This document shows, in pieces, positions 9,690 to 46,627 of a stretch of DNA of 64,000 nt. The notes beneath the pieces were generated by a model. It made no database searches, was not told the origin of the DNA, and worked only from the letters and a program-made list of their open reading frames with translations. Position 1 is the first letter of the stretch. Every line of letters starts with the position of its first letter. Made by a program: the position numbers and the translations under genes. The DNA lies in NCBI RefSeq assembly GCF_014736495.1, contig NZ_MDUX01000006.1, positions 1 through 64,000 of the forward strand, given 5' to 3'. This DNA is from Candidatus Dactylopiibacterium carminicum (GTDB lineage Bacteria; Pseudomonadota; Gammaproteobacteria; Burkholderiales; Rhodocyclaceae).

Positions 9690-10373
9690 TCAAAAAAAGC
9701 CTGCCAGCCAGGGTGACGTAAGCAGCATCAAGATGCCTGCGATGATCATGGTCAGGCTGGAAATCACGCCCTCTTCCGGGTCACGACGATGCGCCGTGAC
9801 GGTGCCTACCGCATGCGCACCGGCGCCGAACATTGCTCCACGCGCCAGGGCCGAACGCACATTGAAGCGCAGCAGCAACAACTCGCCGATGATCATGCCG
9901 CCCAGGCCCGTGATCACCACGAAAATCGCGGCCAGGTCGGCCTGCCCCCCCAACTCCGGCGCAGCAGCCAGCGCGAAAGGCGTACTGATCGAGCGCACCG
10001 CCAGACTGCGCTCGATCAGTACCGGCAGCCCGAAAAGCCGGCTCAGGATCACCGTGCTCAGCACCGCGGTGATCATGCCAGCCAGCACGCCAGCGCTCAG
10101 GCTCAGCCAGTGCCGCCGGATCACGCCACGATATTCATAGATCGGCAATGCAAAAGCGATGGTGGCCGGGCCCAGCATGGCACTGAGCCAGTGGCTCAGC
10201 GAGTTGTACTCCTTGTATGAACTCCCCGTGACCAGCAACAACACGATCAGCAGCAATGGCGCCACGATCAGGGGCGACAACCAGGTACGCGGGTAGCGGC
10301 GATACAGCATGCGTGCCCCGGCATACAGGATCACTGTGAGCAACAGCCAGACAAGGGCAGAAAGGCTCAGCAT
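9690..10373 (-). CDS. lrgB: LrgB/CidB-type membrane protein
   Basis: 227-residue polytopic membrane protein with about six hydrophobic segments. It contains the family blocks SLSHWLSAMLGPATIAFALPIY, RSISTPFALA and GAGAHAVGTV. LrgB proteins pair with LrgA/CidA proteins in holin-like or metabolite-transport roles (in plants, plastidic glycolate export); which applies here is unknown. It overlaps the upstream lrgA-like gene by 7 bp, a coupled two-gene operon. Its last codons are followed by a T-rich stretch after a short CCTG/CAGG hairpin that may be a weak terminator. Confidence 0.9.
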   Translation of the reverse strand: MLSLSALVWLLLTVILYAGARMLYRRYPRTWLSPLIVAPLLLIVLLLVTGSSYKEYNSLSHWLSAMLGPATIAFALPIYEYRGVIRRHWLSLSAGVLAGMITAVLSTVILSRLFGLPVLIERSLAVRSISTPFALAAAPELGGQADLAAIFVVITGLGGMIIGELLLLRFNVRSALARGAMFGAGAHAVGTVTAHRRDPEEGVISSLTMIIAGILMLLTSPWLAGFF

Positions 10374-36522: not shown

Positions 36523-37548
36523 TCAGTTCGACAGACTGCGCGAATACTCCACGAACTCATCCAGCTTGCGACGGGCAGCACCACTGCCGATGGCATCGAG
36601 TGCCTTTTTCACGCCGTCGGCCAGACTGGCTGCCTGGCCAGAAACGTAGATGCTGGCACCGGCGTTGAAAGCCACGATATCGCGCGCGGCAGGTAGCCTG
36701 CCTTCCAGCGCGCCAAGCAGGATCTCGCGGGATTCATCCACCGAGCCTGCACGCAGCTTCGAGGCGGCATGCAACGGCAGGCCGACATCTTCGGGCGAAA
36801 TGCGGTACTCGTGCACTTCGCCATCGCGCAGTTCGCCGATCAGTGTGGGCGCCGAAATCGAGATTTCGTCCAGACCTTTCATGCCATAAACGATCATCGC
36901 GTTACGTGCTCCCAGGCGCTGCAACACGCGCACCTGGATGCCGACCAGATCCTGATGGAACACGCCCATCACCTGGTTCGCGGCCCCCGCCGGGTTGGTG
37001 AGCGGGCCGAGGATGTTGAACAGGGTACGCACGCCCAGCTCACGGCGTACAGGGGCTGCATGCTTCATGGCGGCGTGGTGGTTGGGTGCGAACATGAAGC
37101 CCAGGCCCAGGGTATCGATACACTGGCCGATCTGCTCGGGCGTGAGCGACAGGTTCACACCCAGCGCTTCCAGCGCATCAGCAGCGCCGGAGCGCGAAGA
37201 CACGGCACGCCCGCCATGCTTGGCCACGCGCGCACCAGCAGCGGCAGCCACGAACATCGAGGCTGTGGAGATGTTGAAGGTATTCGCGCCATCACCACCG
37301 GTACCCACGATATCGACCAGGCTCGCGCTGTCCTTCACCGGCACCTTGGTAGCCAGCTCGCGCATCACGGTGGCAGCGGCGGCGATCTCGCCGACGGTTT
37401 CCTTCTTCACGCGCAACCCGATGGTAATGGCGCTGATCAGCACCGGTGATACCTGCCCGGACATGATCTGACGCATCAGATCCACCATCTCGTCATGAAA
37501 GATCTCACAATGCTCGATCACGCGTTGCAAGGCTTCTTGCGGGGTCAT
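36523..37548 (-). CDS. trpD: Anthranilate phosphoribosyltransferase
   Basis: 341 residues. The PRPP-binding glycine loop is [17 protein letters not shown], followed by [46 protein letters not shown] and [12 protein letters not shown]. It transfers phosphoribose to anthranilate, the second tryptophan step. The usual downstream trpC is absent: a terminator and gabD follow. A proton antiporter gene lies between it and trpG, 40 bp upstream. Confidence 0.96.
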
Positions 37549-37588
37549 AACTCACTCTCCATGAAAAACGGAGTCGCAGGGCGGCTCA

Positions 37589-38806
37589 TCACTCTTTGGT
37601 AACGGAAGATGGTTGCGCGGAGGCTTCATCCGCAGCAAGCAGGCTGCGGCTCTGCAGACTGCCATAGGTCAGAAGCAGGGCTCCCATCAGGATTACCAAC
37701 ATCAGGCTGGCCACCGGGAACGCCTCCAGGCGCTGAGATTCGGGAATGCTCATGAACAACAGCACGGTGATCAGGCCACGCGGCGCAAACCACAACAGGG
37801 GCTGCGCCCGCTCGCGCGCAACGCCACGCAGCAAAGCCCATCGCGGCAGCAAGCTGCATCCCATCAACAGTACGGCCATAACCCAGGCTGGCGCAGACAG
37901 CAGCTCGCCGGCACTCACACCGAAACCCAGCAACACGAAGAAGAAGCTGCGCACCACGAAGGTGAACTCCACGGTGAGATGTTTGAAACTTTCCAGATCC
38001 TGTTCGAACTGCGCACGCTCGGCCAGACGCCCACGGGAGAATCGCGCGATCAGGTGGCTGTTGTTGAGCAGCAGCCCCACCAGAACCACCATCACCAGCG
38101 GCGCCAGATGCAGGATCTTGCCCAGCGAATACAGCAAGGTGATGCCGAAGATCATCGGCAACACGCGCACATGGTGTTCGATGCGTTGGATCAGCCAGAA
38201 AATCGAGAGGCCCATGACCAGCCCGACAAATACCGACAACAGCAGCTCGCCGCCCAGCGAAAAGACGAAATCCAGCGGCCCGGAATATTCACGCAGCAAT
38301 GCGTAGAAAAGCACCACGCCAACAATGTCCGAGATTGAACTCTCATAGATCACGAATTCGCGCAGACGCTCGGAAAGCGCTACGGCCGCCGGAATCACCA
38401 CGGCAGAACTGATCACCGCGAATGGCAACGCATGTACCACCGCAAGCTGCCAGCTGGCGCCCAGCCACAACACCAGCACGCCAGCAAACAATGCGCCGGT
38501 CAGCACGACGCCCAGGGTTGCGCAGCCTGCTGCACGCAGAATCATTGGTACGCGCTCGCGCGTGAGGCGCAGATCCAGTGTGCCTTCGAGCACGATCAGG
38601 ATCAGACCGAAGGTCCCCAGCACCGGTAACAGACCCGCAGGCAGCGCCAATTGCCAGCCGACTGCATCAGCCACCGCACGCAGAACCAGACCTGTGAAGA
38701 TCAGCGAGACCACGGCCGGAACCCGTGTGAAGCGGCCGAAGAAGTCGAACAGATAGGCCACGAGCACGATCAGGCTCAGCACCACCATCGTCCAGGCTTG
38801 ATCCAT
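37589..38806 (-). CDS. Monovalent cation/proton antiporter (CPA family)
   Basis: 405 residues and about twelve hydrophobic segments of the Na+/H+ exchanger fold. GTFGLILIVLEGTLDL, FAVISSAVVIPAAVALS and ESSISDIVGVVLFYALL carry the membrane Glu/Asp residues expected for ion exchange, and WFAPRGLITVLLFMS lies near the C terminus. There is no TrkA-N domain. It is inserted in the trp run between trpG and trpD on the same strand, with a good AGGAGG before its ATG. The ion (Na+, K+ or both) is not predictable. Confidence 0.87.
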   Translation of the reverse strand: MDQAWTMVVLSLIVLVAYLFDFFGRFTRVPAVVSLIFTGLVLRAVADAVGWQLALPAGLLPVLGTFGLILIVLEGTLDLRLTRERVPMILRAAGCATLGVVLTGALFAGVLVLWLGASWQLAVVHALPFAVISSAVVIPAAVALSERLREFVIYESSISDIVGVVLFYALLREYSGPLDFVFSLGGELLLSVFVGLVMGLSIFWLIQRIEHHVRVLPMIFGITLLYSLGKILHLAPLVMVVLVGLLLNNSHLIARFSRGRLAERAQFEQDLESFKHLTVEFTFVVRSFFFVLLGFGVSAGELLSAPAWVMAVLLMGCSLLPRWALLRGVARERAQPLLWFAPRGLITVLLFMSIPESQRLEAFPVASLMLVILMGALLLTYGSLQSRSLLAADEASAQPSSVTKE

Positions 38807-38827
38807 TCCGTCCTCCTGTCATGCAAA

Positions 38828-38845
38828 GGGCCGCTTGCGCGGCCC
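38828..38845 (-). other. GC-rich tetraloop hairpin between trpG and the antiporter gene
   Basis: Minus strand GGGCCGC, GCAA loop, GCGGCCC followed by TTTGC. The T run is too short for a strong terminator. It may give partial termination or protect the trpG mRNA end. Confidence 0.5.
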
Positions 38846-38852
38846 CGGCAAT

Positions 38853-39416
38853 TCAACGCTCAAGGAAATTCTGCAGCAGGCGATGACCATGCTCGGTACA
38901 GATCGATTCGGGGTGGAACTGCACTCCCTCGATCGGCAGCGTCTTGTGCTGCACCCCCATGATTTCACCGTCCTCGGTCCAGGCGGTGATTTCCAGACTG
39001 TCCGGACAACTTTCACGCTCGATGGCCAGCGAGTGGTAGCGCGTGGCGATGAAAGGATTCGGCAAGCCCTGAAACACCCCTTTGTCGGCATGCAGGATGG
39101 GAGAGGTCTTGCCGTGCATCAGTTGCCTGGCATGCACGATCTTGCCGCCGAAGGCCGCGCCAATGCTCTGGTGCCCGAGGCAGACGCCGAGGATGGGCAA
39201 TTTGCCGGCGAAATGGCGGATGGTTTGCACCGAGATGCCGGCCTCGGCTGGCGAGCAGGGTCCGGGGGAAATCACGATGCGCTCGGGCGCCAGCGCTTCG
39301 ATCTCGGAAACAGTGATGGCGTCGTTGCGATACACGCGCACGTCGGCGCCAAGCTCCCCGAAATACTGCACCAGGTTGTAGGTGAAACTGTCATAGTTGT
39401 CAATCATCAGCAGCAT
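38853..39416 (-). CDS. trpG: Anthranilate synthase glutamine amidotransferase subunit
   Basis: 187-residue class I glutamine amidotransferase: [30 protein letters not shown], the catalytic Cys in [10 protein letters not shown] and the His/Glu pair in [14 protein letters not shown]. It supplies ammonia to TrpE for anthranilate, or to PabB for folate. Its first codons are the integration site of the neighbouring element (core repeat 39403-39416). Upstream of the ATG is now element DNA. The old ribosome-binding site (GGAG, 6 nt before ATG) has been left at the far end, and only a weak, distant AAGAAG is present here. The protein itself is intact. Confidence 0.94.
39403..39416 (-). other. Attachment site attL (trpG codons 1-5)
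   Basis: ATCATCAGCAGCAT, identical to 46021-46034. On the minus strand it encodes MLLM plus the start of Ile of trpG. Imperfect similarity continues for about seven bases further into trpG. Confidence 0.88.
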
Positions 39417-39468
39417 AAGCGTCGTATCTTCTTGATTTGCAAGGCCTTCGTTCCTGCTTATTGGGCTT

Positions 39469-39497
39469 GATACCCGCTAGGATACCCGCAAATTTTT
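39469..39497. promoter_or_regulatory. Left-end integrase arm-type repeats
   Basis: Two direct copies of GATACCCGC (39469-39477 and 39481-39489), the second followed by AAATTTTT. The same repeats in the same orientation occur just inside the other end of the element next to the integrase gene. They lie in the 178-bp gap between the XRE gene and trpG, which otherwise shows no certain promoter. Confidence 0.65.
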
Positions 39498-39594
39498 TGA
39501 TGCCCTGCGCCGACGGTCGGGAACTGCCCGGACGAAAAGCCCATTTTCTCACGTATCGGCGTTCGTATAAACCGCTGAAAGCAGACCCGGCCAC

Positions 39595-39861
39595 CTACTT
39601 CTTCTTCTGCTTCGCCTGTTTTCGATACTCGGCTTCAACTTCCTGCACCAGTTCAGCAGCAGAAACGCCCAGCGCCAGACCAAGCCCGACGAGCGTTGTA
39701 ATTGTGGGTTGCCGGATGCCGCGCTCAATTCGCGATACGAACGTTCTATCTACGCCCGCCCGGAAGGCAAGTTCTTCCTGCGATACGTTCATATCGGTAC
39801 GATAACGTCGTAACACTTCGCCAAAAATAGGGCCAAGATTGGGTATTTGCGAATTTGCCAT
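39595..39861 (-). CDS. XRE-family transcriptional regulator
   Basis: 88 residues: a helix-turn-helix domain (LRRYRTDMNVSQEELAFRAGVDRTFVSRIERGIRQPTITTLVGLGLALG) with a Lys-rich tail. It is the size of a compact cI/Cro-like repressor. It is divergent from the zinc-ribbon gene, and two palindromes lie in and beside its start codon, so autoregulation is likely. It is now the first gene upstream of trpG on the same strand, with no obvious terminator between. Confidence 0.88.
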   Translation of the reverse strand: MANSQIPNLGPIFGEVLRRYRTDMNVSQEELAFRAGVDRTFVSRIERGIRQPTITTLVGLGLALGVSAAELVQEVEAEYRKQAKQKKK

Positions 39862-39907
39862 GCGGCAAATTTCGTCTTATTGTAGCCTATGGGCCACGGC
39901 CCATAGG
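39852..39907. promoter_or_regulatory. Two palindromic operator candidates between the XRE and zinc-ribbon genes
   Basis: AATTTGCC-ATGC-GGCAAATT (39852-39871) overlaps the XRE start codon. CCTATGGGCC-AC-GGCCCATAGG (39886-39907) is a perfect 10-bp-arm palindrome in the divergent gap. Both are well placed to bind a dimeric repressor and to control both directions. Confidence 0.7.
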
Positions 39908-39943
39908 CACACACCTACTTATTCGAACGACATGGAGGATTCG

Positions 39944-40522
39944 ATGGCGCTACTAAAATGCACTGAATGCGGCGGCAACGTCAGTTCTACAGCAAAAAAT
40001 TGCCCACACTGCGGCGCTGAACCGCCCAAAGCATCGGCGGTTTCGTCGGCGAAGCCTGCGACGCCACAAAAGAAGAAACGCCGTATCTGGCCTTGGATAC
40101 TCGGGTCTTTCATCGTGTTCGTAATCTTCGCCGGAAACCGCGACCTTACGCCCGCAGAACAGGCGGCAAAGGAACAACGCAAAGCCGAACGAGCCGCAGA
40201 AAAGGCAAAGGAAGACCAAGCAGACACAGCCAAGAAAGCGGCGCGCGACAACGAGGTTAAAGAAATGGTATGGGTCGAAAAAGGAAAGGACGCCGTAAAG
40301 GCAAGACTTAAAGACCCTGATTCGGCGCAGTTCAAGGACGTGTATTTCTTTCGCGGAAAAGACAACATCCCCATGACATGCGGCCAAGTTAATTCGAAGA
40401 ATTCCTTCGGTGGATTTAGCGGCTTTCAACACTTTGTTTCCGGCGGATCATCCGAACTGACGTTTCTTGAAACCGAAGTTAAAGATTTTTACAAGGCTTG
40501 GAATCGCTACTGCACGAAGTAA
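39944..40522 (+). CDS. Zinc-ribbon membrane protein, element cargo
   Basis: 192 residues. An N-terminal zinc ribbon (CTECGGNVSSTAKNCPHCG, two CxxC pairs) is followed by a basic stretch and one transmembrane helix (IWPWILGSFIVFVIFAG). Next come a charged Ala/Lys/Glu coiled-coil (about 75-120) and a C-terminal domain with VKARLKDPDSAQFKDVYF, CGQVNSKNSFGGFSGFQHFV and a final Cys. The C-terminal part resembles small domains often found in phage and island proteins, of unknown role. ATG 39944 has GGAGG at ideal spacing. It is the only plus-strand gene of the element and is divergent from the repressor, so it may be induced with excision. Confidence 0.75.
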   Translation: MALLKCTECGGNVSSTAKNCPHCGAEPPKASAVSSAKPATPQKKKRRIWPWILGSFIVFVIFAGNRDLTPAEQAAKEQRKAERAAEKAKEDQADTAKKAARDNEVKEMVWVEKGKDAVKARLKDPDSAQFKDVYFFRGKDNIPMTCGQVNSKNSFGGFSGFQHFVSGGSSELTFLETEVKDFYKAWNRYCTK

Positions 40523-40547
40523 AAAAAACCCGGCACGAAGGCCGGGC
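40521..40547 (-). terminator. Terminator of the element's minus-strand operon
   Basis: Minus strand: GCCCGGC, 6-nt loop, GCCGGGTTTTTTTT. It ends the int-to-40579 run and abuts the stop codon of the convergent zinc-ribbon gene. Confidence 0.85.
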
Positions 40548-40578
40548 AAAAGTCCCTACGATGGCACTCGTAGTTCGG

Positions 40579-41262
40579 TCAGACCTCGACGCGAAGCTTT
40601 GCCTTCGCCGCCAAAGCCGGGTTATAAAAGCTTGTCCGCACGCTGTTGATAGCCTTGTCGTACTTCGCCGGAAGATCACGAAGGGCTAGGCTATCAACTA
40701 CTTTCTTGTACGCATCAGGCAAGTGCTGTTCGAGAACTTCGACCTTCAACTTCTGATGGTTCGCCGGGTTTATGTCCAACAGGAACGAAGGCGAATGCCA
40801 TACGACGCCCGCAACGTTCTTATCCTTCATGGCTTCGCGAATCTTCATCATGCCTTCCGGCTTTCCGGCCTGTTCGCGAAGGTATTGCCGGATTTCGCCG
40901 TCAAGCGTTCCACGGTCAGACTTCGGCGCAAAAGTAAGTTCGGATTGTGTAACCGCGCTGTTCCAAAGTTCATTCGCGCGGCTTTCGATTGACGCTTTCG
41001 ACTTTTCCAGCGCCTGAACGGTGCGTTCGGCCAGAACTGCGGCGGCTTCGTGCTTTTGAACTTCGGTGCGGGTCGGGTCGTTCTTCAACGCAGCAACCTT
41101 CGCCACATTCTGACGAAGTGCGATGCCTGCGTTTGCAATATCCGGCCCTGCGCCCGACTCGAATTGTTCAGGGTCGCCCAAAAATGCGGCACTGCCGGTA
41201 TTCGTGGAAGCAAGTTCCATGAAGCTTTCAGCCTGCGGGCTTTCAACGAGACATGTATTCAT
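40579..41262 (-). CDS. Hypothetical element protein, 227 aa
   Basis: I do not recognise it. It is soluble, with a long helical, Ala/Glu-rich middle (IALRQNVAKVAALKNDP to RTVQALEKSKASIESRANELW, about residues 45-105) that should form a coiled coil. A C-terminal half follows with VVWHSPSFLLDINPANHQKLKVEVLEQHLPDAYKKV. There are no cysteine clusters, no Walker motifs and no signal peptide. It is the last gene of the minus-strand operon, just before the terminator. This is the position where phage satellites often carry accessory cargo. Confidence 0.7.
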   Translation of the reverse strand: MNTCLVESPQAESFMELASTNTGSAAFLGDPEQFESGAGPDIANAGIALRQNVAKVAALKNDPTRTEVQKHEAAAVLAERTVQALEKSKASIESRANELWNSAVTQSELTFAPKSDRGTLDGEIRQYLREQAGKPEGMMKIREAMKDKNVAGVVWHSPSFLLDINPANHQKLKVEVLEQHLPDAYKKVVDSLALRDLPAKYDKAINSVRTSFYNPALAAKAKLRVEV

Positions 41263-41276
41263 GTTATTTCCTTGGG

Positions 41277-41789
41277 TTAGCGTTTAAAAATCGCTTTCAG
41301 ACCGCCCGGCGTTTCGTTGGCTTCTTCGTCAAGAAACTTGCCTGTTTCACGGTTAAAAATACGTTTGTCATTAAGCTCTATAAATCGCCCCCTCTTGGTT
41401 CCGGCCAGTAACGGCGCGGCTTCATTGATTGCTTCGCGTTTGGTGCCCACACTTACCGGGGCCGCTTTAGCTGGCTCGTTGGTTCTGCTTCGTGCCAGTG
41501 CGACAAGTTCGTTTTGATGCTTCAAAAGAGCCGTTTCCCATGCCTCAAAGCTGCAATATCGCGGGCAAAGCATTACCCGCCTGTTAAGAATGCCCGCGTA
41601 ACGCGCCAGAAAGGCCGCAGGCGCGTTTTCTGCCCTTGGGGTAGGGGTAGATAGCCAAGCGGCAACTTCGGGGTCTATAGCCACGCCTGTCGCGTCAATC
41701 TCATATTCCAGCGCAAGGCGATTCACGCGGCGTTTGCTTTGCCGCTTTTCAAGTCGTTTCAACTTCGATTTCAAACCAACGCGGGCCAT
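41277..41789 (-). CDS. Hypothetical element protein, 170 aa
   Basis: Not recognised. It has a very basic N terminus (MARVGLKSKLKRLEKRQSKRR), a middle segment with LCPRYCSFEAWETALLKHQNEL and a C-terminal ELNDKRIFNRETGKFLDEE. It could bind nucleic acid. A TTG at 41810 would add seven residues and overlap the upstream gene. I prefer ATG 41789, which starts one base after that gene's stop. Confidence 0.65.
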   Translation of the reverse strand: MARVGLKSKLKRLEKRQSKRRVNRLALEYEIDATGVAIDPEVAAWLSTPTPRAENAPAAFLARYAGILNRRVMLCPRYCSFEAWETALLKHQNELVALARSRTNEPAKAAPVSVGTKREAINEAAPLLAGTKRGRFIELNDKRIFNRETGKFLDEEANETPGGLKAIFKR

Positions 41790-41790
41790 T

Positions 41791-42102
41791 TCAATAATTC
41801 CGTTCTTCAAGTGCGATCAAACGTTCTTCAATCTCGCTATCCATTCGAATTTTCGATAGCGTCGAAAGAACGTAGGTCAATTTCGTTCCGACATTCGGGT
41901 CAAGTTCGCCCGATTTCATGGCCCGATACACCCGCGCCAATTCCGCCGCAATATCGTTCGCACTGACAAGCTTTGCCCTTGCGTAACGCTTCTTCGGCAC
42001 TAGCTCGCCGCTTGTGGCACTGGCAACCCCCATACCCTCTTGGGATTCTTCAACGCTGGTGCCGGTTTGCTGCGACCAAGGTTGCAAAACTTGCTGGCTC
42101 AT
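41791..42102 (-). CDS. Hypothetical element protein, 103 aa
   Basis: A Gln/Ser/Thr-rich, probably disordered N terminus (about 1-35) is followed by a helical region: LVSANDIAAELARVYRAMKSGELD, TKLTYVLSTLSKIRMDSEIEERL. Proteins of this look occur in temperate phages and islands as small adaptors; no function is known to me. It sits between two other unknown ORFs of the same operon. Confidence 0.65.
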   Translation of the reverse strand: MSQQVLQPWSQQTGTSVEESQEGMGVASATSGELVPKKRYARAKLVSANDIAAELARVYRAMKSGELDPNVGTKLTYVLSTLSKIRMDSEIEERLIALEERNY

Positions 42103-42122
42103 GATGCTGTTTCCTTCAAAAA

Positions 42123-42392
42123 TTACTTGCGTTGCGCGGCAATGGCGGCGTCAATCTGGCAAACGATGCCGCGTTGCCGTTCGCGTATCTTGTATTCGCT
42201 TTTTACTTCGTCATAATTTGCGGCATGTACGAATAAAGTTGTAAGCGCCTGCATCAATGTTCCGTCAATTACGCCTTTTTGCTTTGTTACGCGCTCTGTT
42301 AGATTCATCGCTTCCATTGCCAGCAATTCAGCGACGCAACTTTGTTCTTTGATTAAGTTGTGTATGTCTTCGAAGTGTTCGTACATAGCCAT
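42123..42392 (-). CDS. Hypothetical element protein, 89 aa
   Basis: Small acidic, all-helical protein (MAMYEHFEDIHNLIKEQSC...QALTTLFVHAANYDEVKSEYKI). No recognisable domain. It follows the RepA-like gene after a 180-bp gap that holds iteron-like repeats. Confidence 0.6.
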   Translation of the reverse strand: MAMYEHFEDIHNLIKEQSCVAELLAMEAMNLTERVTKQKGVIDGTLMQALTTLFVHAANYDEVKSEYKIRERQRGIVCQIDAAIAAQRK

Positions 42393-42520
42393 TTCATTTC
42401 TTTAAAAAGTTCGTTATCTGTTGCCCACATAGGGCGGCTTGCCTGCCGCGTCCGGCTGTTTCAATCAACAAAAACAATTCGTCTTGAAACCGCAACACCC
42501 TGCTAAAGCAGGGGGTGTGT

Positions 42521-42577
42521 TTCGGTGTTTCAGGCGGTACTGTTCCGGTACTGTTCCGCCGCGATTTCGGTGTTTCA
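42521..42577. repeat. Nested direct repeats (iteron-like) behind the repA gene
   Basis: TTCGGTGTTTCA occurs at 42521-42532 and 42566-42577. Between them are two copies of TACTGTTCCG at 42538-42547 and 42549-42558, one base apart. An imperfect ACACCCTGC/GCAGGGGGTGT hairpin lies beside them (42494-42518). The symmetric A-B-B-A arrangement next to a replication-type ATPase suggests an origin or replication-initiator binding site. Confidence 0.6.
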
Positions 42578-43222
42578 AGACACAAGCTTTTTCACGTTGT
42601 CGGGCAGGTTCCGGCCTATTGCCTCAATGTTGATAACCGCGTGTTGTTTGCTGCCGCGCTTGACCTGCATACTGTCTCGATTAAATTTCAAGAAGCCTTC
42701 GCTATCCAGCGCCTTCAAATTCCGATTGAATATCGTTCTTAGCGTGTCCGGCGATGCGCTTTGGTTGATTCGGCTGTACTTTTCTTGAAACTTCTTCTTT
42801 AGATTCGTTTGATCGACGATGGCTATTCCGAAATGCTCTACGCTTCGGTTTTCGGCTGCGCATTCTTCGAAGGTCTGCATCATCAAAGCCTTGTTTTCTG
42901 AAAGTTCGACCGGCTTAAAGGCGCTGCGGGCGGCTGCGTTTGATGATTCTTCGGGCACTACGACGCAAGACGTAAGCGCCTTGCCGTCTTTGTCGATGCC
43001 GATTTCAACGACATTCAAACGGAAATAATGCGTATCGCCGTCGCGCCCATCTTTCGCCTTATCGACCTTCCAGCTACGCGCATCTCCTTTGCGGCTAACA
43101 AGGATTGCGGCGTCAAGCGCGGCGAACAGGCTTGAATGCCCGCGAAGCCCCTTTGCTGAATCTTTGCCAGTGTGGGCAACAAGAACGACTAACCCGCCAA
43201 TCAAGCGTTGAAGCGCCTTCAA
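42575..43222 (-). pseudogene. RepA-like ATPase, C-terminal part (frameshifted)
   Basis: 215 codons in a frame offset by one from the upstream half. They carry the rest of the RecA-like core (LQRLIGGLVVLVAHTGKDSAKGLRGHSSLFAALDAAI) and a C-terminal helix-turn-helix-like region (SASPDTLRTIFNRNLKALDSEGFLKF). In intact relatives these motifs follow Walker B within one protein. Only a TTG is available as a start for this piece. Confidence 0.85.
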
Positions 43223-43979
43223 TCATTGCGCCCATATCTTTCGATGAATTTTCGTCCATGCCCGGCGCTGCCCTGTTTAACGTATCGATGAATACGACGC
43301 TGCCGGACGGGCAAACGGCGGCAAGGTCGGTCACGTCCTGCGGGTCAGTAATTCGAAAGGGCTGCGGCAAGAAACGCACGTTATCGGGCATAGCGCGTCC
43401 GTGGTGACGCTGCCACGCAATCACGCGCCCCCGAATACCGCCTTCGCCTTCAAAAACGACATAACCGACAGGGGCAGGCTTGGTGTTGTGGCCGAAGAAT
43501 GGCAAGCCTTCGGCAATAGCTGCGGCCATGTCCAAGCCTAGAAACGACTTGCCAGATGCCGACGCACCATAGAGCGCGGCTAGACCTACGATTGGCAATA
43601 CGCCCTTGATTCGACTGTTCGGCGCGGTCATTGCTTCCAGCATTGCGGCGGAAAGCGGGCTAAAGCGCGGTCTTTGATTTTTTGCAGCGTTGTACTGTTC
43701 TAGCAGTTCTTCGAATGCGTCGGATTCGGCCTTTTCTTTGCTCCAAATCCATTTCGCCCGATGCGAACGAATACCGTACTTCTTTGCGAATTCAAGAAAA
43801 ACCGGCTCAAAATCAGCGCCGTTAGTTTTCAACGCTTGCGCAACAGCGCGTATGTCTTCGTCTTTTTGCTTCGGTCGTACAGGGATAAACGCCAGTATTT
43901 CGCGCCAATCATTTCGACGTTCTTCTAGCGATTTCGGGCCAAATCCGAAGTCTTTCGCTGGAATGCTGGCTTCTGCCAT
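43113..43979 (-). pseudogene. RepA-like (AAA_25) ATPase, N-terminal part (frameshifted)
   Basis: 288 codons. An N-terminal DNA-binding-like region (about 1-100) is followed by Walker A GASASGKSFLGLDMAAAIAEG, GYVVFEGEGGIRGR and Walker B VVFIDTLNRAAPGMDENSSKDMGAMIE. After that the frame runs into unrelated residues (GASTLDWRVSRSCCPHW). The break lies near 43210-43222, where a one-base deletion or two-base insertion would rejoin the halves. The family comprises plasmid RepA and phage-island helicases. Loss probably disables autonomous replication of the element. Confidence 0.85.
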
Positions 43980-43990
43980 TACTTCGCCCC

Positions 43991-44209
43991 TTATGCCGAT
44001 GCAATCAGGGAACGAATGTCTTCAACACGCCATGCGGTAACGCGCGGGCCGAGCTTGACAGGCTGCGGAAAGTGACCTTCCTTGACGCCTTGCCACCATG
44101 TTGATTTTTTGACCGGGATAATCGGCGGAATGCCCTTGTCAGGGCTGCCTATGATTTGCGACAGCCTAAGAAAGCCCGCTTCAGGAAGTTGATTCATTTT
44201 TGCGTCCAT
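43991..44209 (-). CDS. AlpA-family regulator/excisionase-like protein
   Basis: 72-residue MerR-like winged helix of the AlpA type: GFLRLSQIIGSPDKGIPPIIPVKKSTWWQGVKEGHFPQPVKLGPRVTAWRVEDI, with the typical WRVEDIR end. AlpA activates integrase or excision functions in P4-like elements. It lies 11 bp before the RepA-like gene on the same strand. Confidence 0.88.
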   Translation of the reverse strand: MDAKMNQLPEAGFLRLSQIIGSPDKGIPPIIPVKKSTWWQGVKEGHFPQPVKLGPRVTAWRVEDIRSLIASA

Positions 44210-44296
44210 CCTTATCCGTTAGGGAATGGGCGCATTTTTTACCGTCTGATTTATACGAATAAGGGTAAGTCGAAAAGTGAACTTAACCCTACTGAT

Positions 44297-44650
44297 TTAC
44301 TTGATATTTTCCAAATCTCGTTTCCAGTTCTTAAGGTACGTTTTCACTGTTTCGGGTTCCATTTTTAGCGTTTCCGAAACTTCGTTTATGGCGGCGTACT
44401 TCGACAGCCTGTTTTCCATATGTTCGAATACGCGATAGCAAATTGCAGCTTCCTGCCGTTGCTGCGAACGTTTCCGACGAACAGGCGGCAGGCTGTTGCC
44501 GCGCAAGTGTTCGGCAATCATCTTCCTAGCAAGGTCTGGTAACGGTTCGCCGCGTTCAATCATGTCGGCAAAGCGTCGCCAATCGCCGCTTTCGGCCTCC
44601 AGATAGGGTTCATGTACTTGTTCCAGTGGTTCGCGTTTTAGTCTTGGCAT
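44297..44650 (-). CDS. Helix-turn-helix-like hypothetical element protein, 117 aa
   Basis: A basic protein with an acidic N-terminal third (EPYLEAESGDWRRFADMIERGEPLPDLARKMIAEHLRG). Its C-terminal helix-turn-helix-like segment is YAAINEVSETLKMEPETVKTYLKNWKRDLE. ATG 44650 overlaps the integrase stop by 13 bases, so it is coupled to int. It could be a DNA-binding accessory factor; the family is unknown to me. Confidence 0.68.
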   Translation of the reverse strand: MPRLKREPLEQVHEPYLEAESGDWRRFADMIERGEPLPDLARKMIAEHLRGNSLPPVRRKRSQQRQEAAICYRVFEHMENRLSKYAAINEVSETLKMEPETVKTYLKNWKRDLENIK

Positions 44651-45855
44651 TGCTCGCCTCCTTCTTTCGGCTTCATCATGTTTTCGACCATATCCGCCCA
44701 TTCTTGCATCATGGTTCGGCGGTCTTTCATGTATTCGGCTTGGTTGTAGCTGGTGCGAACCTTGTTGCGTTCGGCGTGCGCTAACTGGCGTTCGATTACG
44801 TCGGACTGATACCCCATTTCGTTAAGGATGGTCGAAGCGGTCGCCCGGAAGCCATGCGCCGAAAAGCCGATGCTGTCTTTGCCGTTGAAGCCCATGCGTT
44901 CAAGCGCCCGGTTAAGGGTTGTCGCCGTCATACACTCTTTAGGGTTGCGATAGTTCGGGAACAGCAAGCCGCGCCCGCCAGTGTGGGTATGCAGTTCGCG
45001 CAGCAATTCGACGGCCTGCCGGGATAGCGGGACTATGTGCGGTTCGCGCATCTTCATTCGTTCTGCGGGTATCCGCCATTCGGCCCGGTCTAGGTCAAAT
45101 TCCGACCATTCAGCCTTACGAAGTTCGACGGTTCGAACGAAGGTAAGCAACATCAGGCGCAGCGCAATAACGGTTGTTCGATACCCGCCGTATTCGTCAA
45201 GCGCGGTCGCAAATTCGGCGATTTGTTCGCGGGATAGCGGCTTGCGGTGTTCGACCTTCGGGCGATGAATCGCGCCTTTCAGGGCTGCGGCGGGGTCGCT
45301 ATCAGCGCGAAGCGTTGCGACGGCATAGCGAAAAATGGCCGAAGACCATTGCCGCACCAACAGGGCGACCGTTTCAGCGCCCCGGCCTTCTATGCGACGG
45401 ATGATTTCCAGCAAGTGCGCAGCCGTTACGCTGCGAATCGGAAGCTTGCCCACATAGGGGAACACGTCGCCCGACAGGAAGTTTTCAACTTGGCGCAGAT
45501 AGTACGGCGTCCATCCTGCCGACTTCTTCGCCATCCATTCGCGGGCTACGGCTTCGAAGGTGTTTGCGTTCGCGGCGTTGTTCGCCAGCCGTTCGGCCTG
45601 CCGATTGTGCGAAGGGTGAATGCCTTGTTCGACCAAGCCCCGCGCCTTGCGGTGCAGTTCGCGTGCGTCTGAAAGTCCGATGTTCGGATAGTCGCCGATG
45701 GCAAATACGTTCTCTTTGCCTGCAATGCGGTAGCGATAGCGCCAAAGCTTCGCGCCGGTCGGTCGAACCTCAAGGTACAGCCCGCCGCCGTCTGCAAGCT
45801 TCTGCGGCTTGTCTGCGGGCTTCGTGGTGCGGATTTTGGCGTCAGTTAGTGGCAT
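44638..45855 (-). CDS. int: Tyrosine integrase (P4-like, DUF4102 N terminus)
   Basis: 405 residues. The N-terminal arm-binding domain begins MPLTDAKIRTTKPADKPQKL with DGGGLYLEVRPTGAKLWRYRY, followed by a core-binding region and the catalytic domain. The tetrad is visible: Arg in LLTFVRTVELRKAEW, His-x-x-Arg in SAHGFRATASTILNE, the second His in QLAHAERNKVRTSY and the nucleophile Tyr in YNQAEY. It should catalyse integration at the trpG start. It lies next to attR, with arm-type repeats directly upstream of its ATG. Confidence 0.95.
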   Translation of the reverse strand: MPLTDAKIRTTKPADKPQKLADGGGLYLEVRPTGAKLWRYRYRIAGKENVFAIGDYPNIGLSDARELHRKARGLVEQGIHPSHNRQAERLANNAANANTFEAVAREWMAKKSAGWTPYYLRQVENFLSGDVFPYVGKLPIRSVTAAHLLEIIRRIEGRGAETVALLVRQWSSAIFRYAVATLRADSDPAAALKGAIHRPKVEHRKPLSREQIAEFATALDEYGGYRTTVIALRLMLLTFVRTVELRKAEWSEFDLDRAEWRIPAERMKMREPHIVPLSRQAVELLRELHTHTGGRGLLFPNYRNPKECMTATTLNRALERMGFNGKDSIGFSAHGFRATASTILNEMGYQSDVIERQLAHAERNKVRTSYNQAEYMKDRRTMMQEWADMVENMMKPKEGGEQCQD

Positions 45856-45859
45856 GGCT

Positions 45860-45900
45860 GCGGGTATCGCGGAATTGATACCCGCAAAAATACCCGCAAT
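45860..45900. promoter_or_regulatory. Right-end integrase arm-type repeats
   Basis: GATACCCGC at 45877-45885, ATACCCGCAA at 45890-45899, and one inverted copy GCGGGTATC at 45860-45868. They match the repeats at 39469-39497. The position between int and attR fits integrase arm sites that also allow int autoregulation. Confidence 0.65.
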
Positions 45901-46020
45901 TTTGCCGGATTACAATAGACAATGCCGGTTGTTGATGACCTTCAAACCCTTGCCTTTGCTAGCTTTTTGCTTGGGTATCGGACTTAATTGGATTTTGCTG
46001 GATGCTAATGATGATTATCG

Positions 46021-46034
46021 ATCATCAGCAGCAT
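46021..46034 (-). other. Attachment site attR
   Basis: ATCATCAGCAGCAT, the second copy of the core. On the minus strand the native trpG ribosome-binding site (GGAGAACAGC then ATG) precedes it exactly. The hybrid frame reads MLLMIDNHH and stops at 46005-46007. Confidence 0.88.
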
Positions 46035-46198
46035 GCTGTTCTCCATTGCACGTGGGCCGCGCCACGCTGGCTTTCATGTTCTGACCGGCCAAGATTCATC
46101 CGCAGCCCCGCTTGCGCCGCCTGGTTCGGAAATGGTCCGGAATTTCCCCGCTAGGATGGTGCGCGCCGGGGATACGCGCGCAAAGGATGGCTTGGCGG
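46035..46198 (-). promoter_or_regulatory. Displaced trpG leader region with hairpins and ribosome-binding site
   Basis: Transcribed after the leader ORF. Hairpins on the minus strand are GGTGGC/GCCGCC overlapping the tandem Trp codons, TGCGCGC/GCGCGCA, GGAAAT/ATTTCC and CGTGG/CCACG. It ends with GGAG six bases before the att-core ATG. I see no hairpin followed by a T run, so a classical terminator-type attenuator is not demonstrated. Confidence 0.5.
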
Positions 46199-46255
46199 CT
46201 AGCGCCACCAGCGGAACAGCGAGGATCTGCGAAGGAGGAGGAATTTGCGTCGCAT
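46199..46255 (-). CDS. trpL: Candidate trp leader peptide (18 aa, tandem Trp)
   Basis: ATG at 46253-46255, reading MRRKFLLLRRSSLFRWWR then TAG. The two adjacent TGG codons next to the stop, and a stem that begins at those codons, are the layout of a ribosome-stalling tryptophan leader. It lies between a -10 box and the original trpG ribosome-binding site. There is no Shine-Dalgarno, and the predicted RNA start is only a few bases before the ATG, so it may be leaderless. It now stands 6.6 kb from trpG because of the inserted element. Confidence 0.6.
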   Translation of the reverse strand: MRRKFLLLRRSSLFRWWR

Positions 46256-46265
46256 GACGGGGCAC

Positions 46266-46296
46266 ATTCTAGCCCGGATTGCGGGCGGGCAGACAA
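46266..46296 (-). promoter_or_regulatory. Candidate original trpG promoter
   Basis: Minus strand TAGAAT (46266-46271) with TTGTCT (46291-46296) 19 bp upstream. The spacing is long, but the -10 is good and sits directly before the Trp-codon leader ORF. It fires toward the element's integrase gene in the present arrangement. Confidence 0.45.
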
Positions 46297-46300
46297 CTGC

Positions 46301-46627
46301 TCAACGGCGCCAGCCGCGCTTTTCCAGCGCGTCCTGGCAGCGAGAGCAGCCTTCCCAGGGCAGACAATCGCATTCTAGGGGAAGATACGCCGCGCCGGTG
46401 ACGCTCAGGCCAGCGGAGCGATCCTGCCGGGGGGCCTTGCCAGAACCGCTGCGGGAGCCCGCAGGCTGAACAGCCCCCGGGGCGTCGTCGTCAGACAGCC
46501 AACGGCGGAAGATCGCCAGATTCGCCGGATTGGTGACATACCAGAGCCGCTTTGCAGGGTCCCAGCGGGCGCCCAGGCGCTTCGCCTCATCCTTCTCCGC
46601 GAACGGAACCTGAAGATCGACTCTCAT
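46301..46627 (-). CDS. DUF5710-domain protein with C-terminal Cys cluster
   Basis: 108 residues. The N-terminal DUF5710 segment is MRVDLQVPFAEKDEAKRLGARWDPAKRLWYV. A Ser/Gly/Arg-rich linker follows, then CDCLPWEGCSRCQDAL, where four cysteines could bind zinc. DUF5710 occurs in DNA-processing proteins such as TraC- and DnaG-associated ones; its role here is unknown. It precedes the displaced trp promoter on the same strand. Confidence 0.75.
   Translation of the reverse strand: MRVDLQVPFAEKDEAKRLGARWDPAKRLWYVTNPANLAIFRRWLSDDDAPGAVQPAGSRSGSGKAPRQDRSAGLSVTGAAYLPLECDCLPWEGCSRCQDALEKRGWRR

Follow-up and report, generated by a model that had tools for sequence, protein, structure and literature searches.

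An integrative element in the first codons of trpG separates the gene from a Trp-codon leader and probably exchanges promoters between host gene and integrase

Elements inserted at the 5′ end of dusA were shown to give their target gene a new promoter (PMC8409611; see also PMC4482086), and elements in prfC are stated to bring both a new promoter and a new 5′ end (PMC8409611). Expression of int in SXT depends on SetCD (PMC4344509). For the tRNA-targeting integrative and conjugative elements (ICEs) ICEKp1, ICEclc and ICEEc1, measurements have shown that the promoter driving the integrase changes with the state of the element (PMC13023037). Here, we describe a 6,618-bp integrated element that occupies the first codons of trpG, the gene for the anthranilate synthase amidotransferase, in Candidatus Dactylopiibacterium carminicum. 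The whole stretch analysed, 64,000 nucleotides of contig NZ_MDUX01000006.1, is called the window, and all positions refer to it. The comparisons below suggest that integration probably swaps promoters reciprocally, with trpG receiving that of the element and the integrase gene falling behind that of the host.

The first 14 bases of trpG on the minus strand (ATGCTGCTGATGAT, 39416-39403) recur as a second copy at 46034-46021 of the same strand. The earlier note on this DNA, made from the letters alone, had taken this repeat of the first trpG codons for the attachment core and had placed both copies correctly. The copy at 39403-39416 is the present trpG start (attR), and the copy at 46021-46034 is the stranded native start (attL), followed by a short frame reading MLLMIDNHH-stop. 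Past the core, the two element ends are alike at the codon level (ATCGATAAT versus ATTGACAAC, both Ile-Asp-Asn). The element (39403-46034, 6,618 bp between corresponding core positions) has a G+C content of 52.7%, against 62.3% in the remainder of the window. Its integrase gene (44638-45855, minus strand, 405 aa, same direction as trpG) starts 179 nt after the attL ATG and encodes a P4-type tyrosine integrase, with the Pfam domains Arm-DNA-bind_3, Phage_int_M and Phage_integrase each above cut-off and arm repeats of the GCGGGTATC type on both sides of the core.

A search of 33 records yielded 20 elements whose two ends share a contig, and the site of strand exchange was examined in these. Integrase and trpG are co-oriented in all 20 pairs, with attL-trpG distances of 2.6-110 kb, although the integrase of the shortest pair (L113, 2.6 kb) is truncated and long pairs may contain more than one element. 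Codons 2-3 are unlike at the two ends in nine pairs, and in 19 the ends agree throughout ATGATCGA; the remaining pair, L068, differs by one base (ATGATTGA), its ends, like those of the window, showing C/T at one base of ATGATCGA. These comparisons indicate that strand exchange is inside trpG codons 4-6 (ATGATYGA), not over the whole 14 bp, and that the element carries its own ATG and codons 2-3. The window codons 2-3 happen to be identical at both ends, so the protein is unchanged. Everything from the trpG promoter region through the leader and ribosome site to codon 3 is replaced on integration, and trpG (38853-39416, minus strand, 187 aa; TIGR00566 trpG_papA, 283 bits against a cut-off of 121) has an element-derived ATG and codons 2-3 in the integrated state.

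The element end facing trpG was aligned over 27 ends from beta- and gammaproteobacterial hosts, namely 30 loci minus five (L155, L156, L159, L161 and L174; contig edge, no arm seen, or second trpG copy) plus the window and L053. Arm sites of the GGGTATC type and a purine-rich site ahead of the ATG are common to all, and most also have an AT-rich hexamer some 133 nt upstream. In the window, the arm-type sites GGGCATC, GCGGGTATC and GCGGGTATC lie at 39469-39505 (minus strand). The element-borne, ribosome-site-like stretch AATCAAGAAGATAC lies at 39424-39437 (minus strand) and corresponds to the conserved AATCAA..GATA of the alignment (window AAGAAGAT, L165 AAGAGGAT). A candidate element promoter, TTTATA - 17 nt - TGA/GAAAAT, is located at 39543-39571 (minus strand), 132 nt before the trpG ATG, and the best sigma-70-like site starts 124-135 nt before the ATG in 23 of the 27 arms. 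Since single scores are mostly not significant and the aligned ends are related, the argument for a promoter is one of position, not of strength.

Beyond attL, the minus strand holds what appears to be the native upstream region of trpG. It comprises a -10-like TAGAAT (46266-46271), an 18-codon open reading frame (ORF; 46199-46255, MRRKFLLLRRSSLFRWWR) ending Trp-Trp-Arg-stop, a predicted hairpin enclosing both Trp codons and the stop (46190-46212), and a GGAG ribosome-binding site (46041-46044) exactly 6 nt before the stranded ATG (46034), in agreement, base for base, with the -10 box, ORF and GGAG of the earlier note. In three of the seven other genomes of the genus (G003, G004 and G005), which are element-free at this place, a leader stands directly 5′ of trpG with the same -10 box, an 18-codon ORF ending RWWR-stop, the Trp-codon hairpin and a GGAG or GAG box. 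The expectation that relatives carry the leader there thus held for these three but not for the rest: directly 5′ of trpG lies trpE in G002 and G006, and some other gene, neither leader nor trpE, in G001 and G007, which we take to be an alcohol dehydrogenase gene. When the four genus leaders were aligned, the -10 box (invariant in all four), Trp codons, stop, hairpin stems and ribosome site were all conserved. A covariance model built from them matched nine of the 297 genomes of the family at E ≤ 0.01, with the four genus leaders at E < 1e-29 (G003 at 6.4e-30) and G088, from another genus, at 1.6e-4. On reading, the G088 match is a real leader; tblastn found no trpG, trpD or trpE in G088, yet the leader precedes a trpG start that is an attL. 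The same three genes were likewise absent by tblastn from G139, G162, G188 and G244, whose matches (E 0.005-0.01) were regarded as chance.

The check proposed with the original claim, alignment of the joined flanks with relatives, gave a continuous match through the junction in G005 (bases 30 to 824 of 830, 74% identity). G004 aligned in two pieces, leader and gene, and the other five genomes, G003 among them, aligned over the gene part only or 1-16 bases beyond. The sequence now upstream of trpG behaves otherwise, its alignment beginning at the ATG or 4 bases inside it in six of the seven relatives and 17 bases before the ATG in G002. The resemblance of the leaders within the genus is more than chance. 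Because relatives hold the leader-trpG order, and because the joined flanks align and the as-found upstream region does not, these alignments indicate that the separation of leader and gene is real. The three genomes with the ancestral order bear out the claim that the element, while preserving the protein, has cut the trpG-antiporter-trpD run off from the promoter region and Trp-codon leader native to it.

Ribosome-dependent trp attenuators, such as enterobacterial trpL (RF00513) and rhizobial trpL, consist of a short ORF that carries tandem Trp codons towards its end and a hairpin over these codons, placed directly before a trp gene. The window leader is alike in these respects and fits such an attenuator in part, with the tandem Trp codons of its leader peptide within a hairpin. 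It differs in that its ORF starts a few bases into the transcript, as judged from the -10 box, in having no U-tract terminator and in its lack of an Rfam match: a search up to E = 10 returned two chance matches and no Trp leader family, RF00513 not being among them. Covariation is low (one of 26 pairs in the alignment fold changed on both sides), and a classical antiterminator pairing, sought by eye alone, was not found consistently. Since the leader is without an intrinsic terminator and an Rfam match and shows little covariation, Trp sensing is plausible but unproved, and a Rho-dependent or translational variant of attenuation may apply despite the missing terminator. The same features would be expected if two Trp codons had arisen by chance in a short ORF or if the leader had another role. 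We consider this unlikely, as RWWR-stop and the Trp-codon hairpin are kept in four of the eight genus genomes, G088 has an ORF ending CWLVPFRWRR-stop with a hairpin at the same place, and all five leaders, each predicted to form the hairpin, stand before a trpG start.

On the other side of the element, arm-type sites GCGGGTATT, GCGGGTATC and inverted GATACCCGC lie at 45860-45897 (minus strand), between attL and the integrase gene. An inverted repeat in this region stops 3 nt short of the integrase ATG, and 32 of 33 loci have a perfect inverted repeat, at least 7 bp long, whose end lies 1-8 nt upstream of that start codon. Such a repeat may serve to bind the integrase, to damp read-through as an RNA hairpin, or both. 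In loci with the core, the integrase gene continues downstream of the stranded trpG start in the same direction, and the short open frame after that start has 7 to 55 codons over 32 frames. Moreover, trpE lies within 1.5 kb upstream of attL in eight of the 31 other loci, of which L053 offered only 147 nt for this search. In L058 (Dechloromonas sp. CZR5, 9803-10000), a strong hairpin and T-run were seen by eye between attL and the integrase gene, and these would insulate the integrase from the host promoter.

In the integrated state found in the window, the element end with its arm sites, purine-rich site, ATG and two codons lies 5′ of trpG, and the native Trp-codon leader and original trpG start lie upstream of the integrase gene in the same orientation. 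With 20 of 20 pairs co-oriented and the inverted repeat in 32 of 33 loci, this geometry appears to match the arrangement of the integrase promoter switch of the ICEKp1 type. We therefore propose as likely, on comparison of sequences, a reciprocal promoter swap, in which an element with a P4-type integrase would recombine inside trpG codons 4-6. Before integration, the host leader would drive trpG, with the element end turned towards the integrase gene in the excised circle. After integration, the element end would drive trpG, probably without Trp control, and the integrase gene would be preceded by the host trp leader or, in certain other hosts, by trpE, with the hairpin at the integrase start codon damping its expression. 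Excision would return the wiring exactly to its original state.

Several observations weigh against the promoter swap. The candidate promoter of the window is weak (score 9 of a possible 13, attained by 5% of its shuffles), and a strict promoter scan of the window's element end found none, so it is named as a candidate only. Most arms are singly no better than their own shuffles, and four of the 27 have no best sigma-70-like site at the expected place. The conservation of the element end could be due to the arm sites alone, and the arms, being related, do not count as independent. A strict sigma-70 scan of the native leader also gave no match, and 45850-46400 contains 0 terminator-like sites. 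This last result bears on another account, namely that trpG is still transcribed from its native leader by read-through of the 6.6-kb element and that nothing has been rewired. Such read-through would be helped by the direction of most of the larger element ORFs, which is that of trpG, and by the lack of a terminator-like site downstream of the leader in that interval. It would have to pass the gene at 39944-40522, which is opposed to trpG, and the terminator-like hairpin at 39685-39667 (0.4 expected by chance), and in other hosts as much as 110 kb of DNA from attL to trpG; we regard it as very unlikely.

The reciprocal promoter swap could be taken one step further. Integration might capture a Trp-sensing host promoter for the integrase, so that Trp starvation would favour excision and rejoin trpG to its leader, a metabolic switch for self-release. 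Starvation would then increase the transcription that runs from the leader into the integrase gene; in loci with trpE in place of a leader upstream of attL, this role would fall to the trp operon promoter. We hold this extension to be quite unlikely.

The integrase relatives comprised 78 loci from named genomes (from the best 80 of 118 confirmed stretches) and 37 from IMG/VR, giving a set of 117 when the window and G088 are counted. At identities of at least 63%, every one of the 32 testable loci has a trpG start 171-198 bp ahead of the integrase start (L042 and L066, with upstream DNA cut, are outside this number). Among the remaining 83 integrases (<63% identity), a trpG start precedes the integrase in G088 alone (51% identity); 61 of the 82 without it have at least 190 bp upstream. 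The hosts of trpG elements include Acidithiobacillus, Thiobacillus, Rhodanobacter, Pseudoxanthomonas, Pseudomonas, Oceanimonas, Zobellella, Tepidiphilus and Dechloromonas. In a tree of 107 of the 117 sequences (those of at least 350 aa), the window falls within a clade of 28 with an SH-like approximate likelihood ratio test (SH-aLRT) value of 98, made up of 27 integrases at trpG and one without a testable attL. L064 and G088 stand outside it in an unresolved fork. The 28 integrases adjoining tRNA genes lie elsewhere in the tree, of which 50 sequences have no assigned target.

The integrase was also found at E ≤ 1e-110 in 26 of the 297 family genomes and, in a sample of the class, at E ≤ 1e-120 in three of 369 genomes including the window, the other two loci (L221 and L222) having no trpG core. 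The 25 family loci besides the window and these two class loci make 27 further loci. A trpG core is present in 16 of them, at integrase identities of 48-80%, those at 48-60% being additional to the tree and many being more divergent than the first set, so trpG targeting reaches beyond the tree clade; the other 11 have no trpG core, one of them (L223) not being testable. The two counts overlap, because L224/L052, L227/L056 and L237/L070 are identical upstream and apparently come from the same genomes. No record matched in the phage and plasmid collections reaches 60% identity, even at its best place. Taken together, these counts indicate that the window element is one of a large, widespread family of beta- and gammaproteobacterial elements that use the first codons of trpG as a landing site.

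The G088 leader (MQPFISPCWLVPFRWRR) stands 5′ of the attL of a different element, and no trpG start was found in the 38.6 kb beyond that attL. As G088 belongs to another genus, the Trp-codon leader appears to have been displaced by a trpG element at least twice. The G088 stretch (L218/L219) also contains apparent conjugation genes and a DNA methyltransferase/nuclease/helicase cluster, named from a look at the sequence only. Upstream of attL, one or two arm-like sites and an element-like ribosome-site motif were seen in L045, L049, L050, L057 and L063, which suggests tandem trpG elements in these five. The motif only was seen in L047, L060, L061 and L068, as it was by eye in L070 and L120, and a single arm-like site only in L044.

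What the displacement means for the host depends on the state of its biosynthetic genes. The host trpE (G000:C116:40110-41608, L192) is interrupted by a frameshift and an in-frame TAG, and it reads GCND at the position of the GRND motif of the compared relative. The gene may be decayed, with tryptophan synthesis possibly already lost, or the lesions may be assembly errors. Further trpE-like genes are an open PabB-type gene (TIGR00553 just above cut-off) and an isochorismate synthase gene (TIGR00543 above cut-off), and trpG is the sole TrpG/PabA-type match at E ≤ 1e-60 in the genome, alongside seven more GATase-domain matches. The main surviving role of trpG may be in folate synthesis. The earlier note had proposed that control of tryptophan and possibly folate synthesis was rewired. 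Its tryptophan part is weakened by the trpE lesions and the absent leader terminator; folate control would then be the likelier consequence, since trpE looks decayed and a single TrpG/PabA-type match coexists with an open pabB-type gene. These observations also suit a plainer account, which we think quite possible though short of probable: an ordinary insertion at a safe site, where the conserved trpG start is targeted, the new upstream end just keeps the gene expressed, and losing the leader makes no difference to regulation. In its favour, the hosts examined have like core codons, and the same strategy is known for dusA. It fits less well with trpC and trpA matches free of internal stops and a full-length trpD, which argue that the pathway is not wholly lost, and with a leader still well preserved beside attL.

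The remaining cargo includes a gene for an AlpA-like regulator (43991-44209, minus strand; PF05930, 27.4 bits against a cut-off of 21), a candidate excision factor, and a Cro/CI-type helix-turn-helix (HTH) regulator gene (39595-39861, minus strand; HTH_3), besides small unknown genes. A RepA/primase-like AAA gene (42575-43979, minus strand; PF13481, with PHROG 2850 across both halves) is frameshifted into two overlapping frames, whereas the matches in L040 and L067 lie in a single frame by their tblastn coordinates; the element may therefore be replication-defective. A defence-gene search with 10 element proteins matched the HTH protein alone. Downstream of trpG, an antiporter-like gene (37589-38806, minus strand; antiporter model below its cut-off) is followed by trpD (36523-37548, minus strand; TIGR01245, 411 bits against a cut-off of 199). 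This order (36523-39416, L010) is shared by G001 alone among the seven other genus genomes, and trpE is on a different contig from trpG. The genes beyond the leader are presumably zapE, sucB and sucA.

With a Trp-codon leader (this genome and G088) or trpE (eight of 31 other loci) on the far side, mobile DNA appears to decouple trpG repeatedly from its old control, no residue being changed in a protein that is probably shared with folate synthesis. This amounts to a clean natural experiment, in which one gene is found with host or element promoters and which excision could in principle undo. Anyone comparing trp regulation between genomes must check beyond the far end of these elements for a displaced leader. 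Should trpE really be dead, loss of the leader may matter little for tryptophan in this host, trpG being kept for folate.

The integrase of phage P4, which inserts at a tRNA gene, shares the domain family and has 41.5% identity over 97% of the query. The earlier note had called integration at the start codon of a biosynthetic gene an unusual strategy. That view does not stand, as dusA and prfC elements likewise bring a promoter and a 5′ end and trpG itself is a recurrent target. The open-licence PMC literature searched, as far as its accessible text goes, yielded no prior description of trpG-targeting elements; it places trpG inside a predicted prophage region (PMC12456005) or merely lists it (PMC2864759). 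The pyocin cluster between trpE and trpG of P. aeruginosa (PMC7344871, PMC11577772) is a different matter.

The dusA elements (Farrugia 2015, PMC4482086; IMEVchUSA3, PMC8409611) resemble trpG elements in bearing an integrase, in their very varied size and in targeting the 5′ end of a housekeeping gene. They differ in their PrtN/RdfN-like recombination factor, against an AlpA-like candidate here, and in their target; the window core lies in trpG, not dusA, the first codons are replaced without change of the protein, and in this host a Trp-codon leader is displaced. Promoter supply in the manner of dusA elements is represented at the window's element end by conserved promoter-like hexamers only. 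SXT/R391 ICEs are stated to do likewise in a different conserved gene, prfC, entering at its 5′ end and providing a new promoter and N-terminus (PMC8409611). ICEKp1, ICEclc and ICEEc1 (PMC13023037) share with the trpG elements an integrase about 200 bp from the target gene on the same strand, stem-loops before int and an opposite element end that faces attP. Their host gene keeps its promoter because they target the 3′ end of a tRNA gene, whereas here the promoter of the host gene is probably exchanged too. In summary, 5′-end targeting with promoter replacement is already known, and the trpG case would join it with integrase promoter switching at a biosynthetic gene, its variant features being the trpG target, the unchanged protein and the Trp-codon leader placed before the integrase.

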